From the NCBI GenBank assembly GCA_938027655.1, contig CALJAP010000216.1, forward strand, positions 1-34,735: a stretch of 34,735 bases of DNA. Reading direction: 5' to 3'. The DNA comes from an uncultured bacterium (GTDB taxonomy: Bacteria > Armatimonadota > HRBIN16). The notes below the pieces were generated by a model that made no database searches, had not been told where the DNA came from, and was given only the letters and a program-made list of their open reading frames with translations. Below, piece after piece: positions 16,113 to 31,926 of this stretch. Within the stretch, counting starts at the first letter, position 1; every line of letters starts with the position of its first letter. Both the position numbers and the translations under genes were made by a program.

Positions 16113-16541
16113 CTACAGCGTTTCTCCTATATACGCACCCACCTGTCGCAAGAACTCGTCCAGGTCGCCGATATCCTCCCGGGCGACACGCAACACCTGA
16201 CGGTCGTCAATCTGCCAGTAGCGATGCACCAGAAGGTTCCGAAACCGCGCCATCGCCTGCAGACGTTGGGCAAGCGTCTCATCGATAATACCTCGCTGAT
16301 GCAACGAGGCGAAACACTCGGGATAGGCGGAAGGCGCTACTCCTCCAACACGCGCCATTAGGTGCGTGCAAATACTCGCCACGTCCTCTATTGCCTGAAT
16401 AAGATGTAACTTCGCCGAGTCGATATAAAGCTCGTTGCTCCAGAACTGTTCGTCGGGCAACGCGGCGAGCTTTTGTATCTTCTCTATGTTCTGCCTCAAC
16501 GACATCGCTCGAGCCTGAAGCACATGCAGGTCCGGCTTCAT
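16113..16541 (-). CDS. hepT: HepT-like HEPN ribonuclease toxin (DUF86)
   Basis: The 142-residue all-helical protein carries the HEPN signature RX4HXY as Arg101-NLLV-His106-Arg-Tyr108 (RFRNLLVHRYWQID). Other typical parts are NIEKIQKL near residue 18 and a KLHLIQAIEDVASICTHLMA helix near 44. HepT proteins are toxins that cleave RNA (some act on tRNA) and are silenced when the partner MntA adds AMP groups to the Tyr next to the active site. The ATG at 16541 overlaps the antitoxin stop by 4 bp (ATGA). GGAGG lies 10 bases upstream. Residues encoded before this ATG belong to another frame of the antitoxin gene. Confidence 0.9.
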   Translation of the reverse strand: MKPDLHVLQARAMSLRQNIEKIQKLAALPDEQFWSNELYIDSAKLHLIQAIEDVASICTHLMARVGGVAPSAYPECFASLHQRGIIDETLAQRLQAMARFRNLLVHRYWQIDDRQVLRVAREDIGDLDEFLRQVGAYIGETL

Positions 16542-16957
16542 CTCCCGAGTGCCTCCTTCAACATCTGCCGGGCATGGTAATCGAAGTCCATAATCTCTAG
16601 CCAGAGTCTCTCCAGAAAGTTGCAACGCAGTTCCTCGTCACGGCTCAGCAACAGCTCCCCTGCGGTTGCGGTGAATTGCACTCCGCGCGGAGCCTGGTTG
16701 AGCACCAGCACGTCCACAGGCAAACCGACATGCTTCTCCAGCTCATCAGCCAGCCGGAAGGCATAACGAAGCCCCTCTTCCCCATCGACACTCCCCGCGC
16801 GCAGGTAAACCGCCACATCGATATCCTCGAAGGGCACATCTAGCAAAAAGGAGCCGTGCAGAGTGGCGAAAAGTATCTCGCCGTGAGGCTCCAGCGCCGT
16901 CCGGAGTCGCTCGCGAACCCGCTCCTTCTCCTCGTGTGAAAGGGTAAACCGATGCAT
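16538..16957 (-). CDS. mntA: MntA-like nucleotidyltransferase antitoxin
   Basis: The 139-residue protein is a minimal nucleotidyltransferase. LFATLHGSFLLDVPFEDIDV includes Gly35-Ser36 and the metal-binding pair Asp45-x-Asp47. The GS to DxD spacing is eight residues, shorter than the ten in the best-known MntA. A helical tail follows (EIMDFDYHARQMLKEALGR). In MntA/HepT systems this protein AMPylates the toxin. AAGGAG lies 8 bases before the ATG at 16957. A much longer open frame upstream runs across the DNA polymerase gene on the other strand and is not coding. The gene is divergent from the polymerase gene. Confidence 0.88.
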   Translation of the reverse strand: MHRFTLSHEEKERVRERLRTALEPHGEILFATLHGSFLLDVPFEDIDVAVYLRAGSVDGEEGLRYAFRLADELEKHVGLPVDVLVLNQAPRGVQFTATAGELLLSRDEELRCNFLERLWLEIMDFDYHARQMLKEALGR

Positions 16958-17029
16958 CTCGTGCTCCTTCCTCATTCTACCGCCCGCGCCGTGCGACGTC
17001 AACCGGTGTTCACCCAGCGCTCCTTCAGG

Positions 17030-17062: not shown

Positions 17063-19228
17063 ATGATGAATCTTTTCGATACCCCAGCCCTCTCTGCCGA
17101 GCAGATTCTCTTCGGCTGGAGGGATACGCCGCGTCTGGTAGCGGTGGAGCTGACCGACACCGAAGCTGTCCTGCACCAGCGCACGCCCGATGGCGCGTGC
17201 ACCAGCTGGCGCGAACCGTTCACCCCCTGGCTGCTGACCACCCAGCAATATACGGATATCGACGCGCAGTGGAAGCGGCTGGACGGCGACGGTTTCTGCT
17301 GGATGGCGCAATTCGCTTCGTGGGCGGAGTACCAAAGCGCACGGATGCGCCTGCGCGATATGCATGTGGACGTTATCGCCTTCGGCAGCCCCGAACGGCA
17401 GTTTCTGATGTGGTCGGGCTACACGCTGTTCAAAGGCATGAGCTTCGACGATGTACATCGGATGCAGGTGGATATCGAAACAGCCGGACTGAACCCGCAA
17501 GAACCCTCCAATCGGATATTGCTGATTGTTCTGCGCGATAATCGCGGCTGGAGCGAGGTGATAGAGGACGCAGACGAAGCGCAAATGCTCCACCGATTCG
17601 TGCAGCTGATGCGCGAACGCGACCCCGACGTTGTAGAGGGACATAACCTGTACGGTTTTGACCTGCCCTACCTGATAGAACGCGCCCGACGACATAACAT
17701 CCCCCTTACGGTAGGGCGCAGTGGGCAGCTAATGACCATCGGTGGCGAGCGTAACCTGCCCATCGGCGCGATTAACCGCCCCTATCGCCCTGTGTACATC
17801 CCCGGAAGGCACGTCGTGGACACCTATTTCGCCGTACAGCGCTACGACTGGGCAAAGGGCGACCTGCAAAGCTACGGGCTGAAAGAGGTGGCTCGCGCCT
17901 ACGGCATCGCCGATGAGGAGCGTGTGCTGATAGACCGCGCCGACCTGGGCGAGCAGTGGAGGGCTGACCCCCAAAAGGTGCGCCAGTACGCCCTGCAAGA
18001 CGTGCAGGAAACCGCCCGGCTGGCGGAAATCGTGTTGCCCACCGAGTTCTACCAGACGCAAATGGTTCCCGATACCTACCAGCACGTCGCCACCGCCGGC
18101 AGCGGGGAGAAGATTAACGCCATTTTCGTGCGGGCATACCTGCACGCCAGTTATGCCATCCCCAAACCCCAACCTGCCCGCGACTACCCGGGCGGATACA
18201 CGGAGGTGCGACGCACAGGGGTCATCCCACGTGTGGTGAAGGCGGACGTAGAGAGCCTCTACCCCAGCATTATGCTGGTGCACCGCATTGCCCCCGCCTC
18301 CGACCGGCTGGGCGTGTTTCTGCCCGCGCTGGAGGAGCTCACCCGTCGGCGTCTGGAGGCGAAGGCGGAACTGCGCCGCGCTACCGACCCGCGTCAGCGC
18401 GCCTACTGGGACGGTATTCAGGGTTCCTTCAAGGTGCTCATCAACTCCTTCTACGGCTATCTGGGCGCAAACTTCCCCTTCAACGACTTCGACGCGGCGC
18501 AACGGGTGACCGAAGAGGGGCGCAAAATCGCCATCCAGCTGGTGGACGCGCTGGAACGCACAGGCAGTAAGGTGATCGAGGTGGACACCGATGGCGTCTA
18601 TTTTCAGCCGCCGGAGGGCGTGGAGGGGCAAGAGGCAGAAGAGGCATATGTGCAACAGATAGCGGAAACCCTGCCTCCCGGCATTCGCCTTAGCTTCGAC
18701 GGGCGGTACCGAGCGATGATTTCGGTGAAGACCAAAAACTACGCCCTGCTGGACTACGAGGGCAGCTGGACCTATAAGGGAGCCTCTCTGCGCTCCCGTG
18801 CCGACGAGCCTTATGGACGCCAGTTTATCGCCGAGGTGCTGCAGAAGCTGGTGGAAGGCGACCGCGACGGCATCGCGAAGTTATACCGGCAAACCGTCCT
18901 GCGCATCCTGAACGGCGAAGTGCCCATCGACGAGCTGGCGCGGCGCGAGCGCGTCACCGAAAAGACCTTTACCAGCGAGAACAAGCGCAAAGCGGCTGAG
19001 GCAGTGCGCGGCGTCAGTGTGGGCGATTACGTGAACCTTTACCAGCGGGCAGACGGTTCACTGGGCATGATAGAGGATTATGCAGGCGATGAAGACCGCG
19101 AACACTACGCAAACAAACTCTACCGCTTCGCCCTGCGACTGCGCGAGGCGATTGGAGAGGATTTTGACCTGCTCTTCCCCCGTCCTGAACAGGTGATTCG
19201 CGAGCACCAGCAGCCCAGTTTGTTCTAA
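17063..19228 (+). CDS. Compact family-B DNA polymerase with 3'-5' exonuclease
   Basis: The 721-residue protein has all the main family-B motifs. ExoI is MQVDIETAGL (Asp137, Glu139), ExoII is VEGHNLYGFDLPYL, and ExoIII is YALQDVQET. Polymerase motif A is KADVESLYPSIM (Asp395), motif B is KVLINSFYGYLGA, and motif C is EVDTDGVYF (Asp508, Asp510). Catalytic residues appear intact, so both proofreading and synthesis are expected. It is shorter than Escherichia coli Pol II (783 residues), mainly in the N-terminal and thumb parts. It would serve in repair or bypass rather than main replication. The gene ends overlapping, by 4 bp, the convergent CARF-RelE gene. The alternative start three bases downstream is equivalent. 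Confidence 0.93.
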   Translation: MMNLFDTPALSAEQILFGWRDTPRLVAVELTDTEAVLHQRTPDGACTSWREPFTPWLLTTQQYTDIDAQWKRLDGDGFCWMAQFASWAEYQSARMRLRDMHVDVIAFGSPERQFLMWSGYTLFKGMSFDDVHRMQVDIETAGLNPQEPSNRILLIVLRDNRGWSEVIEDADEAQMLHRFVQLMRERDPDVVEGHNLYGFDLPYLIERARRHNIPLTVGRSGQLMTIGGERNLPIGAINRPYRPVYIPGRHVVDTYFAVQRYDWAKGDLQSYGLKEVARAYGIADEERVLIDRADLGEQWRADPQKVRQYALQDVQETARLAEIVLPTEFYQTQMVPDTYQHVATAGSGEKINAIFVRAYLHASYAIPKPQPARDYPGGYTEVRRTGVIPRVVKADVESLYPSIMLVHRIAPASDRLGVFLPALEELTRRRLEAKAELRRATDPRQRAYWDGIQGSFKVLINSFYGYLGANFPFNDFDAAQRVTEEGRKIAIQLVDALERTGSKVIEVDTDGVYFQPPEGVEGQEAEEAYVQQIAETLPPGIRLSFDGRYRAMISVKTKNYALLDYEGSWTYKGASLRSRADEPYGRQFIAEVLQKLVEGDRDGIAKLYRQTVLRILNGEVPIDELARRERVTEKTFTSENKRKAAEAVRGVSVGDYVNLYQRADGSLGMIEDYAGDEDREHYANKLYRFALRLREAIGEDFDLLFPRPEQVIREHQQPSLF

Positions 19229-20259
19229 GGATACCACTCCTCGAACTGCTCGCGGGGATAGTGTGTCCTGTACACCCCCTCCGCCAGCGCACGCTCGTAA
19301 TCGGTGTGCGTCCAGAACACCTCGCAGACGCGCAGGTTGCCGCGCTCGTCTAGATAATACAGGATGCGCTCCGCCACGTTGCCGGAAGGATACACCAGAC
19401 AGTCGCTTCCGTGCACGCTGTGTGAGTTCTGTTTGCGCATCTCGGGCACCCGCAAACGCTTCAGCCTTTCGTGCAGCACCTGCCGCACCGACGGCTCCGC
19501 CGAGTCCAGCGCGTGCACTGCCCGCCGGTGCAGGTAGAGCGGGGTCGGTCGCTCTGCCTCCACACGCGCTCGATACGCCTCGTAAAACGCCTCGCCCGTC
19601 GGAGAGAGCAGGGTGTACCCTTCCTCCTCCACCAGCAACAGCCGAATCTCTTCGGGCAGGGGGCGCAAGCGATCGTCTACCGCTGTTGTGGGGCGCAGGT
19701 CTGCGCTAATCCAGTCAAAAAAGTCCACGTAGGTATCGATCAAGCTGAAGTCCCAGCTGATGGGCGTTGGAGGCAGTTCGATAATCTCCCTAAACGCTTC
19801 GTGGATGTAGTACACCGGCACATCGAACAGCAGCCCAACCAGCGTGGCATAGGCGATTTCCGCCTTGAAGCCGCCCGTCGCGTTCACCAGCACCTGCCTG
19901 TCGGCGTCACGCTCTTTACGGATGATTTCCACCAGCGTCGCCACCAGCGAGCGCAGTCCGCGCATCTTGAAACGGCTCTCGCGGTACTGCAGGTCGGTCA
20001 CTTCGCGCAGGTCTACCGGATAGCCTCTATTGTTGTAGAAGGTTGCCAGTGCCTCCGCCGCGTGTTTTCCCTCTTCCGTCTGCGAGTGTAGAAACACGAT
20101 GCGGTCGCCCTCTTGTAATAAATGTCTCAGCGAGTTGGTCTCCGCGCTAGCCCTCTCCGGCTCCGTAAAGCGCAGGTAGGTCTGCAGGTCATTCTTCTTG
20201 CCCGCGCGTTCAGCATTACCCAACAGCGACGTTCCCACGGTAACGATAATCGTGCGCAT
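19225..20259 (-). CDS. CARF-RelE fusion, candidate cyclic-oligoadenylate-activated mRNA interferase (Cami1-like)
   Basis: The 344-residue protein starts MRTIIVTVGTSLLGNAER and has LVNATGGFKAEIAYATLVG at 124-142. These are the ligand-pocket motifs of CARF domains of the Csm6/Csx1 and APE2256 type. A middle part (~195-232, PLPEEIRLLLVEEEGYTLLS then PTGEAFYEAY) looks like a small winged helix. The C-terminus (~240-325) fits a RelE/ParE fold: two helices (SVRQVLHERLKRL), then strands with AERILYYLDERGNLRVCEVF and a final HTDYERAL. CARF-RelE proteins (Cami1) are activated by cyclic oligoadenylates from type III CRISPR complexes and cut mRNA in ribosomes. No HEPN motif is present. The start at 20259 is chosen by homology; a GGGGGG run lies upstream. 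The RelE call is my reading of the fold pattern. Confidence 0.8.
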   Translation of the reverse strand: MRTIIVTVGTSLLGNAERAGKKNDLQTYLRFTEPERASAETNSLRHLLQEGDRIVFLHSQTEEGKHAAEALATFYNNRGYPVDLREVTDLQYRESRFKMRGLRSLVATLVEIIRKERDADRQVLVNATGGFKAEIAYATLVGLLFDVPVYYIHEAFREIIELPPTPISWDFSLIDTYVDFFDWISADLRPTTAVDDRLRPLPEEIRLLLVEEEGYTLLSPTGEAFYEAYRARVEAERPTPLYLHRRAVHALDSAEPSVRQVLHERLKRLRVPEMRKQNSHSVHGSDCLVYPSGNVAERILYYLDERGNLRVCEVFWTHTDYERALAEGVYRTHYPREQFEEWYP

Positions 20260-20411: not shown

Positions 20412-21410
20412 ATGACATGGCGAACCATCGGTTTATTCCTTCCCGCCCTGCTTTCGGCAGCATCGGCGGGGCAAGTGCAGTTTGAGGAAAAGGTCAGCTA
20501 CGGAGGGTGGGCAAACTGCATCCGCCTGAGCAACGGACGCATCGAGCTGATTGTCACCACAGACGTGGGTCCACGTGTCATCCGCTGCGCCTTTGTGGGT
20601 GGCCAAAACCTGTTCCACGAGTTCAGGAACGATATGGGCAAGACGGGGGGCAACGAGTGGCGACCCTACGGCGGACATAGACTATGGCATGCGCCGGAGC
20701 AGATGCCTCGCACCTATTCGCCCGACAACGACCCAGTGCAGTACAGCTGGGATGGGAAGACGCTCACCCTGACTCAGGCGGTGGAACCCTCCACAGGTAT
20801 TGTCAAACAGATAGAGATAACCCTCTCGCCGACAGAAAACCATGTCAAACTGACTCATCGGCTGGTAAACAAGAACCTGTGGGACATCGAGGCAGCGCCG
20901 TGGTGCCTGACGTTCATGGCACAGGGCGGACGAGCCATCTTCCCACAGGAACCGTACATCCCCCACTCGGAATACCTTTTGCCCGCGCGTCCGCTGGTGC
21001 TGTGGCACTACACCAACATGCGTGACCCGCGCTGGATCTGGGGCACGAAGTACATCCAGCTGAAGCAGGACCCCACCGTCCCCCCCGACGACAGGGGCAA
21101 GCAGAAAGTGGGTATGCTCAACAAGCAGGGCTGGGCAGCGTATGTGCTGAAGGGCGAGGTGTTCTTGAAACGCTATGTCTATAACCCTGCTGCAACCTAC
21201 CCGGACTATGGCTGTAACACCGAAGTTTTCACCAACGCCGACATGCTGGAGCTGGAGACGCTGGGCGCGTTCAGCAAGATACCTGCTGGCGGCTCGGTAG
21301 AACACGTGGAGCACTGGTTCCTGTTCAAGGCGGAGGTAGGTGAGCAGGAGGCGGACATCGACGCCACACTCCTCCCGCTGGTGCAGCAAACGGAGAATCT
21401 GGTTAAATAG
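20412..21410 (+). CDS. DUF4380-like secreted carbohydrate-associated protein
   Basis: The 332-residue protein begins with a signal peptide (MTWRTIGLFLPALLSAASAG). The body resembles DUF4380, a galactose-mutarotase-like beta-sandwich. Examples are NCIRLSNGRIELIVTTDVGP near residue 34, RVIRCAFVGGQNLFHE, YGGHRLWHAPEQMPRTYSPD near 85 and KQIEITLSPTENHVKLTHRL. The fold suggests sugar binding or epimerase-like action on the cell surface, but no function is established. The start at 20412 is chosen because it gives the signal peptide and has GGAGG 11 bases upstream; the residues before it are not family-like. A 49-bp gap leads to the HDOD gene, so they may be cotranscribed. Confidence 0.8.
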   Translation: MTWRTIGLFLPALLSAASAGQVQFEEKVSYGGWANCIRLSNGRIELIVTTDVGPRVIRCAFVGGQNLFHEFRNDMGKTGGNEWRPYGGHRLWHAPEQMPRTYSPDNDPVQYSWDGKTLTLTQAVEPSTGIVKQIEITLSPTENHVKLTHRLVNKNLWDIEAAPWCLTFMAQGGRAIFPQEPYIPHSEYLLPARPLVLWHYTNMRDPRWIWGTKYIQLKQDPTVPPDDRGKQKVGMLNKQGWAAYVLKGEVFLKRYVYNPAATYPDYGCNTEVFTNADMLELETLGAFSKIPAGGSVEHVEHWFLFKAEVGEQEADIDATLLPLVQQTENLVK

Positions 21411-29717: not shown

Positions 29718-30747
29718 GCATCGCGTGGCGATACTGCAACATGGCGGTATCCGGGGGCAGTTCGGCAAGACGGGGCTGGCTCTGCTGCGCTACAGTGAGG
29801 CGCAGATTGTGGCGGTGATAGACGCCGACTGCGCGGGCGGCTCCATTCCTCAGCTCACCGGCATCCCGCGTGAAGTCCCTATCGTGGCTTCCCTGCGCGA
29901 GGCGTTGCGCTATCAGCCACAGGTGCTGGTCACCGGTATCGCGCCGCCCGGTGGTGCGCTCCCCGAAGCCTGGTGGCAGGAAGTGGTGGAGGCGGTGCAG
30001 GCGGGGTTGTGCGTGGTGAACGGTCTGCATACCCCGATGGCAGAACACCCCGACCTGAAACCCCTCCTGCGGGAAGGGCAATGGATTTGGGACGTGCGCC
30101 GTGAACCGCCGGGCTTGACGCTGGGCAGCGGTGCTGCGCGGGAGCTGCCCTGCCTGCGCGTGCTCACCGTCGGCACGGATATGGCTATCGGCAAGATGTC
30201 CACCAGTATCGAGCTGCATCGTGCCTCGCTGAAGAGGGGACTGCGTTCGGCGTTCATCGCATCCGGGCAAACGGGCATCATCATCGCAGGCGATGGCGTG
30301 CCGCTGGACGCAGTGCGTGTGGACTTCGCGGCGGGCGCGGTGGAGCAGGTGGTGCTGCGCTATGGGCACGACCACGAGATTCTACATATCGAGGGACAGG
30401 GCTCCCTGCTCAACCCGGCGTCGACGGCTACCTTGCCTCTCATACGTGGCTCACAACCCACGCACCTGGTTCTGGTGCACCGCGCCGGGCAGACGAACAT
30501 CCGCAGCTATCCGCACGTGCCCATTCCACCGCTCCCCGAAGTGATTCGGCTTTACGAGACGGTGGCGTCGGGAGCGGGGGCGTTTGCGCCTGCGCCGGTA
30601 GTGGGCGTGGCACTCAACACCGCGCATCTTTCCGAAGAGGCAGCGCAGGTCGCCATCGCACAGGTGGAGGCTGAAACCGGCTTACCTTGTACCGACGCGG
30701 TGCGCTACGGAGCAGAGAAACTGCTGGAGGCGATTCTGAAACGCTAA
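29701..30747 (+). CDS. DUF1611 P-loop protein, DgcN-like
   Basis: The 348-residue protein matches DUF1611. A Rossmann-like first half (RVAILQHGGIRGQFGKTGLA, VAVIDADCAGG, VTGIAPPGGALPEAW) is followed by a P-loop half with VGTDMAIGKMSTSIEL (Lys165) and FIASGQTGIIIAGDGVPLDA. The tail VRYGAEKLLEAILKR is also typical. A member, DgcN, N-acetylates D-glutamate, after which DgcA inverts the product to N-acetyl-L-glutamate. The start is taken as GTG 29701, inside the epimerase gene (17-bp overlap) with GGGGGTG upstream. The residues encoded before it are not family-like. The end overlaps the convergent PIN gene by 4 bp. Confidence 0.85.
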   Translation: MRILPEHRVAILQHGGIRGQFGKTGLALLRYSEAQIVAVIDADCAGGSIPQLTGIPREVPIVASLREALRYQPQVLVTGIAPPGGALPEAWWQEVVEAVQAGLCVVNGLHTPMAEHPDLKPLLREGQWIWDVRREPPGLTLGSGAARELPCLRVLTVGTDMAIGKMSTSIELHRASLKRGLRSAFIASGQTGIIIAGDGVPLDAVRVDFAAGAVEQVVLRYGHDHEILHIEGQGSLLNPASTATLPLIRGSQPTHLVLVHRAGQTNIRSYPHVPIPPLPEVIRLYETVASGAGAFAPAPVVGVALNTAHLSEEAAQVAIAQVEAETGLPCTDAVRYGAEKLLEAILKR

Positions 30748-31208
30748 CCTTCCGTGCGGAGCAGGCTGTCTACCTTTTCAGGCGACCACGCTTTCAAGAA
30801 ATCAAACCGCAGGAAGTCTTGCGTATTGAAAGTGAGCAGATGTGGTATGCCATATAGCCTCAGGATGGCAGCAATTCTGGCATCCCATACCTGTCGCCCG
30901 AGCACCTTGTAGTCCTGGACGATACGCCACCATATGCCGAAAAGGCGTTCGTCCTCAGGAACTGTAGCAAACCAGTTCCTGTATGCTTCCACATCCAAAA
31001 TAGCCTCTTCAGCTGTCAGTCCCAGTCCACCGCGTGCAGTGGATGGACGAGTAGCAACAGCCCAGTATTCCATCAACACCTGTGTGCTTAATAGCAGGTG
31101 AAAGCCTTTCGCATCGAGGAGTTCTATTGCCCGTTCCGCTAAGCTGCGAAGAGGGACGATAGGGTCTTTCAGGCGTACCAAAACCGAGCTGTCTATAAAG
31201 ACATCCAT
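30744..31208 (-). CDS. vapC: PIN-domain ribonuclease toxin (VapC-like), module 1
   Basis: The 154-residue protein has the PIN acidic cluster: Asp6 (VFIDSSVLV), Glu47 (VLMEYWAVATRP), Asp109 (VWDARIAA) and Asp131 (FNTQDFLRF). These should bind Mg or Mn for RNA cleavage. ATRPSTARGGLGL after the Glu is a subgroup feature shared with the second PIN toxin at 31438. The start overlaps the antitoxin stop by one base (TAATG). It is the last gene of a four-gene overlapping chain, and its end overlaps the DUF1611 gene by 4 bp. Confidence 0.9.
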   Translation of the reverse strand: MDVFIDSSVLVRLKDPIVPLRSLAERAIELLDAKGFHLLLSTQVLMEYWAVATRPSTARGGLGLTAEEAILDVEAYRNWFATVPEDERLFGIWWRIVQDYKVLGRQVWDARIAAILRLYGIPHLLTFNTQDFLRFDFLKAWSPEKVDSLLRTEG

Positions 31209-31441
31209 TAATCCGCTCCGTAAATGTGCTCACGCCGTAGCGACTCGGCATCTGGAGACTCACCTCGAGCAGGACGGCTGGCGAGGTCTTTCCACAACCG
31301 TGCAAAACGGTTCTCCCCCTGCAGGGCATCCTCTGCTTCTATTCTCAAAAGTAGCCTTTTGCCTACCGGCAAATCCAGCGGCTCCTTGGGGATAAGCACC
31401 TTGCCGTCGTACTCCGCCTCGATCAGTAGGGTAGACATCAC
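31208..31441 (-). CDS. DUF104-like antitoxin (AF2212 type), module 1
   Basis: The 77-residue protein has LLIEAEYDGKVLIPKEPLDL then PVGKRLLLRIE, the pattern of the AF2212-like / DUF104 antitoxins that pair with PIN toxins. The second half (~40-77) is a charged helix, probably the toxin-binding tail. MM at the start allows two adjacent ATGs. A 56-bp stretch of its 5' coding part (31365-31420) matches that of the second copy with one difference. It starts inside the upstream PIN gene (ATGA, 4-bp overlap). Confidence 0.85.
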   Translation of the reverse strand: MMSTLLIEAEYDGKVLIPKEPLDLPVGKRLLLRIEAEDALQGENRFARLWKDLASRPARGESPDAESLRREHIYGAD

Positions 31442-31926
31442 ACATCACCTCTCTGATTCATCTTAGCATACTGAAGCAAGCCGTCTACGTCTTCGGGTGA
31501 CCAAGCGCGGATAAAGTCAAACCGAACAAAGTCCTGAGTATTGAAAGTGAGCAGATGCCTTATCCCGTGCAACTGCATGATTGCCGCGATACGTGCATCC
31601 CATACCTGTCGCCCGAGCACGCGGTAGTCGCGCACAACTCCTCGCCATATCTCAAACAACTCTGGGGTTTCGCTCAGCACATCGTGGGTGGAGATAAAGT
31701 TATCCACATCCTTCGCTGCGCTTTCCACGCTCAACCCCAGACCCCCACGCGCCTCCGGAGGACGGGTCGCAACCGCCCAGTATTCCTGAAGGCACTGCGG
31801 CGCGGTATAAACGTTCCAACCCATGTACACCAGTTTCTCGATAGCACCCACTACTGTCTGGTGGTAAACATCGCGAGCATGGCGTTCCCGAAGGAGGATA
31901 CCGGTATCCAGCAGTACCGCTTTCAT
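31438..31926 (-). CDS. vapC: PIN-domain ribonuclease toxin (VapC-like), module 2
   Basis: The 162-residue protein carries Asp7 (VLLDTGILL), Glu48 (CLQEYWAVATRP), Asp110 (VWDARIAA) and Asp132 (FNTQDFVRF). The C-terminal half is nearly the same as in module 1 (VLGRQVWDARIAAI.., HLLTFNTQDF.RFDF, AWSPE.VD.LL), while the N-terminal 40 residues differ. That fits a duplication with the recognition part drifting. Its start overlaps the antitoxin gene by 4 bp. Confidence 0.9.
   Translation of the reverse strand: MKAVLLDTGILLRERHARDVYHQTVVGAIEKLVYMGWNVYTAPQCLQEYWAVATRPPEARGGLGLSVESAAKDVDNFISTHDVLSETPELFEIWRGVVRDYRVLGRQVWDARIAAIMQLHGIRHLLTFNTQDFVRFDFIRAWSPEDVDGLLQYAKMNQRGDV

Follow-up and report, generated by a model that had tools for sequence, protein, structure and literature searches.

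A stand-alone Cami1-family CARF-RelE gene in the bacterial genus HRBIN16, with type III CRISPR loci elsewhere in the genome

Introduction

Why would a gene resembling an effector of type III CRISPR signalling lie in DNA that shows no CRISPR locus? This question was raised by a 34,735-nucleotide stretch (the window), in which a first-pass annotation had read a fusion of a CARF sensor with a RelE-type domain and had seen no CRISPR genes within 15 kb on either side. This limit corresponds to the contig ends, since the window spans all of contig C216; the draft genome to which it belongs measures 3.53 Mb in 219 contigs and is 99% complete. The locus touches a known puzzle, namely that of type III loci which produce a second messenger yet lack an effector.

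Results

Sequence and predicted structure place the protein in the Cami1 family

The open reading frame at 19225-20259 proved to be real and is encoded on the minus strand, running from 20259 down to 19225, which the first-pass annotation had not specified. A longer in-frame start exists at 20463, but in every orthologue the alignment starts at the Met of 20259. The nearest named record, Bacterium HR16 (HRbin16), is 92% identical. The features of the locus are the following:

19225..20259, minus strand: Cami1-family CARF-wHTH-RelE gene, 344 amino acids plus stop (profiles, AlphaFold2 model, Foldseek)
19765..20259, minus strand: CARF sensor domain of the CARF7/APE2256 type, residues 1-165 (PF09651, 1.1e-34; Foldseek to Crn1)
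19525..19746, minus strand: helical and winged-helix linker, about residues 172-245 (secondary structure of the AlphaFold2 model; Sis0811 alignment)
19228..19524, minus strand: predicted RelE-fold mRNA-interferase domain, about residues 246-344 (8phb profile alignment; RelE matches 4fxe_E and 3g5o)
20227..20229, minus strand: codon of S11, GTS motif, invariant (motif equivalent of SyCsm6 S12)
19864..19866, minus strand: codon of K132, TGGFK motif, invariant (motif equivalent of SyCsm6 K167)
19366..19368, minus strand: codon of R298, kept in 36/36 RelE-type homologues
19306..19308, minus strand: codon of H318, matching the position at which ribosome-bound Cami1 (8phj) has Ala for His, kept in 35/36
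19297..19299, minus strand: codon of Y321, kept in 36/36 RelE-type homologues
17063..19228, plus strand: family-B DNA polymerase (PolB), convergent neighbour kept in the genus (Pfam PF00136, PF03104)

Both CARF motifs quoted in the first-pass annotation were found, TVGTSLLGNAER at residues 7-18 and NATGGFKAEIAYA at residues 126-138, and CARF residues S11, E40, G129, G130 and K132 are invariant. The CARF half matched Pfam Cas_APE2256 (the PF09651 hit listed above) and NCBIfam TIGR02619 (1.7e-24), and residues 2-342 matched the PADLOC profile CARF7--CARF_RelE (2.9e-119). The best PDB match in a single-sequence search was Cami1 8phb (residues 37-251; 6.9e-13). With a 17-sequence profile, the alignment to 8phb reached 6.2e-29 and spanned the CARF and wHTH domains through the RelE domain.

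The AlphaFold2 model (38 sequences, monomer; pLDDT 91.9, pTM 0.86) comprises a Rossmann-like half, a helical winged-helix segment (H191-198, H203-208, E209-212, E215-218, H220-235) and a C-terminal alpha/beta domain. In a Foldseek search of the PDB, the top four matches were Cami1 chains (8phb, 8phj; 7.9e-19 to 1.8e-18), with two Crn1 ring nucleases next in rank, Sis0811 and SSO1393 (about 1e-12 to 1e-13), the Sis0811 alignment reaching about 272 columns. TM-scores against Cami1 over the whole length were moderate (0.5-0.6) and the rmsd was large, which we read as a different arrangement of the domains. The winged-helix domain between CARF and RelE, unnamed in the first-pass annotation, is present in the model and in the 8phb and Sis0811 alignments, with approximate borders. 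The C-terminal part matched E. coli RelE (4fxe_E, TMt 0.69) and M. tuberculosis RelE2 (3g5o_B, TMt 0.75). These fold matches and the 8phb profile alignment bear out the RelE assignment, which had been made by pattern reading.

As deposited, 8phb and 8phj differ in sequence at one His (DHDEY versus DADEY), at the position that aligns with H318. Judging from these sequences, the change from His to Ala in 8phj probably marks the catalytic His. The single exception at H318 among the 36 RelE-type homologues (genome G164) has a His adjoining the aligned position. Since the Cami1 assignment passed the profile, structure and catalytic-residue tests, we found neither a non-RelE C terminus nor a first half devoid of CARF similarity. 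The protein is thus a Cami1 in every respect that sequence and predicted structure can test. A location within a type III CRISPR locus, usual for Cami1 and not strictly defining, was not seen here. Assignment to the Crn1 class failed, given the presence of the RelE domain and an NF040951 score of 43.8 against a cut-off of 600. The CARF residues themselves are compatible with cleavage of cA4.

The gene is conserved as a stand-alone copy in HRBIN16

Our survey covered 291 genomes of the phylum Armatimonadota, 10 of which belong to the genus HRBIN16. Orthologues with 80-92% identity were found in 9 of these 10: the copy of the window, six further full-length copies (82-92% identity) and two copies cut by contig ends. 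The gene was not found in the tenth genome, G182 (89% complete). As first described, it meets PolB (17063-19228, plus strand) tail to tail, with a 4-base overlap, and this order is kept in six of the eight informative HRBIN16 genomes. PolB lies 1.7 kb from the gene in G180, and none was seen on the short contig of G183. A functional link to PolB was considered, for which the conserved neighbourhood is the support and nothing beyond, and PolB is not judged to be part of the effector. Around the HRBIN16 copies, no cas gene was detected.

In a draft genome of 219 contigs, separation from cas genes could be an artefact of assembly or binning. However, the contigs with the PolB order include ones of 203 kb (G184) and 1.34 Mb (G185), and the single-contig genome G164 also has a solo copy. 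This explanation is already contradicted, and we give it almost no chance.

The dN/dS ratio was 0.084 for the whole gene, 0.068 for the CARF part and 0.116 for the RelE part, with 0.058 for PolB, so the gene evolves under purifying selection. A decaying relic might well be left, like this gene, with none of the operon partners of its relatives; yet all seven full-length copies in the genus are free of stops, the whole-gene dN/dS is low and the catalytic residues are intact. Decay is thereby contradicted for the genus and hardly credible.

The same values bear on the idea that the stand-alone copy works chiefly as a ring nuclease, a shared off-switch for the product of a distant Cas10, with the RelE domain secondary or idle. 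Indeed, the CARF domain is close to Crn1 by profile and fold, its S11 and K132 are invariant, and SyCsm6, also a CARF7-RelE protein, breaks down cA4 and cA6 with no RNase activity observed (PMC9676260). Moreover, Cami1 is stated to possess ring-nuclease activity (PMC12409355). A pure ring nuclease would, however, need neither the conserved RelE catalytic residues nor the constraint on the RelE part, and orthologues without RelE were not seen in the genus. We regard a mainly ring-nuclease role as unlikely. We conclude that this is a genus-wide stand-alone Cami1, probably split from cas operons and fixed as a chromosomal gene in the HRBIN16 lineage.

Other genes of the window resemble toxin-antitoxin components. 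Next to PolB, positions 16113-16975 (minus strand) encode a HepT-like HEPN ribonuclease (PF01934, 2.6e-28) and an MntA-like nucleotidyltransferase (PF18765), likely a toxin-antitoxin pair; an MntA-like gene also adjoins PolB in G181. Tandem PIN-domain (VapC-like) genes at 30744-31208 and 31438-31926 (minus strand), with 73% DNA identity over 176 nt, are possibly duplicated toxin-antitoxin pairs.

Two type III loci lie elsewhere in the same genome

The absence of CRISPR genes described earlier holds for contig C216, on which searches for Cas10, a second CARF7 gene and CRISPR repeats gave no match, and does not hold for the genome. The genome-wide cas10 search proposed in the first-pass annotation revealed two loci with a GGDD Cas10. 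On contig C63, a type III-B locus comprises Cmr1-6, an HD-less Cas10 with GGDD and a CARF-HEPN Csx1. On contig C188, a type III-A locus comprises Csm3, Csm2, an HD-GGDD Cas10, SAVED-TM and CARF-DUF2103 proteins and then an array. The repeat GTTTCAATCCCTTATAGGTAGGCTCGTAAC was counted in 21 copies on five contigs and in none on C216; the reversed control gave 0. Since both loci have local effectors (Csx1 in one, CARF-DUF2103 and SAVED-TM in the other), the stand-alone gene is not needed to complete them.

Three candidates in this genome were rejected. A third Cas10-like match on C39 (2.6e-4) falls in a GGDEF diguanylate-cyclase-like gene. The second CARF7 protein, on C188, is not another Cami1, as it matched PADLOC CARF-DUF2103 (7.3e-102) and lacks a RelE-type C terminus; its AlphaFold2 model is weak in the C-terminal part (pLDDT about 36-68). 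A 202-aa C188 protein considered as Cam1 is the SAVED-TM protein. The SAVED-TM and CARF-DUF2103 genes adjoin Cas10 in the III-A locus (L005:4172-6003). A DUF2103-type CARF7 protein was also seen in G177 (contig C10, locus L058), a genome reported as 98% complete in which no Cas10 was found.

Several HRBIN16 type III-A loci have no recognised effector

Searches detected Cas10 in nine of the ten HRBIN16 genomes. III-B loci that do not run off a contig end have Csx1. An HD-GGDD Cas10 with Csm genes, in most cases also with Cas6, is present in the III-A loci of G179, G180, G181, G184 and G185 and in one of those of G187; no effector was detected in them by profiles or, for selected neighbours, by PADLOC. 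Genome-wide searches of G179 for Csx1, SAVED and Card1 proteins gave none, which leaves the solo Cami1 as the sole member of this effector set detected there. In G185, Cami1 lies about 265 kb from the only Cas10, and a Csx1 gene is also away from that Cas10. Csx1 genes apart from Cas10 were observed in both G164 (C1:1767999 and 2481911) and G185 (C3:442744), so that scattered effectors may be a frequent feature of these Armatimonadota.

Effector-less loci were reported to be 2.57 times likelier to occur where a genome has several type III loci, and they were proposed to activate effectors encoded elsewhere by inter-locus signalling (PMC11229360). The HRBIN16 case fits this idea, but its III-A loci may have effectors of an unrecognised kind beside them.

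Claims of Cas10 absence based on a single model are unreliable, since G165 and G028, at first taken as Cas10-less, both have divergent Cas10 genes. A weak match in G183 was rejected as a GGEEF gene. Two carriers of the gene have no confident Cas10: G183 (80% complete) and the L092 genome, bacterium LSA4.bin17 (completeness not given). In the latter, the ORF next to the solo CARF-RelE gene begins with a Cas3-like HD motif, which suggests a type I system.

These two carriers would suit a protein that has left CRISPR and responds to some other nucleotide signal, for instance a cyclic nucleotide of the CBASS or housekeeping type. The gene never adjoins cas genes in the genus, and an orphan CARF protein without a type III system, VC1899, provides a precedent (PMC7969007). 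On the other hand, Cas10 is present in nine of the ten genus genomes, no SMODS (CBASS) cyclase was found in the 14 genomes searched (E 0.001), and the ligand-site residues are unchanged, unlike those of VC1899. We therefore hold such a departure from CRISPR to be very improbable. The first-pass annotation had left the choice between a distant CRISPR system and another signal. The two GGDD Cas10 loci, the Cas10 distribution and the lack of SMODS matches favour the distant CRISPR system; the other signal survives as a minor alternative.

Operon-borne relatives and the tree suggest repeated or old separation

Outside HRBIN16, RelE-type homologues are mostly found inside type III operons (Cmr or Csm), in other Armatimonadota, Blastocatellia, Myxococcota, Atribacterota, Syntrophomonadaceae and Thermaceae. 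Clear solo copies are few (G164, G169, G165 and L092). In the tree, the HRBIN16 clade groups with the solo G164 copy (100/99), and the solo label requires 3 changes, compared with 9.6 in shuffles. This grouping and the few label changes suggest that separation from operons was repeated or old, with its direction not proved. In the single-contig G164 genome, about 0.98 Mb separates the solo Cami1 from a III-B locus (HD-less, GGDD) in which no effector was recognised.

Discussion

The gene lies far from CRISPR genes that are present elsewhere in its genome, and so it probably answers a CRISPR alarm at a distance. We consider it likely that the protein is a Cami1 effector of type III signalling that stands alone in HRBIN16 and acts in trans for distant Cas10s. 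Either Cas10 would detect phage RNA and make a cyclic oligoadenylate, most likely cA4, which would diffuse to the CARF dimer and switch on the RelE domain. The latter would then cut mRNA in the ribosomal A site and halt translation, and the CARF domain would probably destroy the ligand slowly, limiting the response. Switch-on by cA4, ribosomal mRNA cutting and self-limitation by ring-nuclease activity are inferred by analogy with the family (PMC11229360, PMC12409355, PMC9676260); Cami1 is described as cA4-activated in PMC11229360. In genomes such as G179, Cami1 may be the sole effector serving a type III locus with none adjoining it. Three points count against action in trans as an effector: the local effectors at both type III loci of its own genome, the absence of RNase activity in the SyCsm6 assays (PMC9676260) and the lack of a convincing Cas10 in G183.

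A more speculative extension, which we rate as very improbable, is that HRBIN16 Cami1 is a core chromosomal gene that outlasts the turnover of type III loci and answers both Cas10 products and a further, non-CRISPR nucleotide signal, as a stress-triggered mRNA interferase.

The kind of protein is already known. What is of interest is its conserved separate location, paired with type III loci without a recognised effector. HRBIN16 thus offers a concrete comparative case for the puzzle of effector-less loci, with the effector at one chromosomal site and III-A loci with an active-looking Cas10 and no recognised effector elsewhere. The simplest example is G179, with a solo Cami1 and a III-A locus in which no effector was recognised.

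Characterised Cami1 is a homodimer that is activated by cA4, cleaves mRNA in a ribosome-dependent manner and binds the ribosomal stalk. Of the structures attributed to Mogila et al. (2023), 8phb is reportedly the apo form and 8phj the cA4-bound form with the 70S ribosome. The HRBIN16 protein shares with them the CARF-wHTH-RelE plan, the top four PDB fold matches, the His that is Ala in 8phj and the ligand-site motifs. It differs in sequence (about 20-23% identity in structural alignments) and in that its gene is alone, far from cas genes. CARF-RelE proteins of type III-A/B operons (Blastocatellia, Myxococcota, Thermaceae, Thermosyntropha and other Armatimonadota) are closer, with the same domains, 40-61% identity and the same conserved residues, but are encoded beside Cmr, Csm or Csx1 genes.

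SyCsm6 (Sll7062, Synechocystis) is likewise a CARF7-RelE fusion with the Ser and Lys of the ring-nuclease site. Its S12 and K167 were implicated in ring-nuclease activity and ligand binding, and its cOA cleavage depends on K167 (PMC9676260). In contrast to the HRBIN16 gene, it is the last gene of a III-D operon, and the protein is a ring nuclease in vitro with undetected RNase activity (PMC9676260). Crn1 (Sis0811, SSO1393) shares the CARF and wHTH fold (about 1e-12 by Foldseek) and lacks the RelE domain. Finally, VC1899 (orphan CARF, DUF1887) is also a CARF protein with no type III locus next to it, but it has another nuclease domain and a pocket reported as unsuitable for cA4 (PMC7969007), whereas the HRBIN16 protein has kept its pocket residues.
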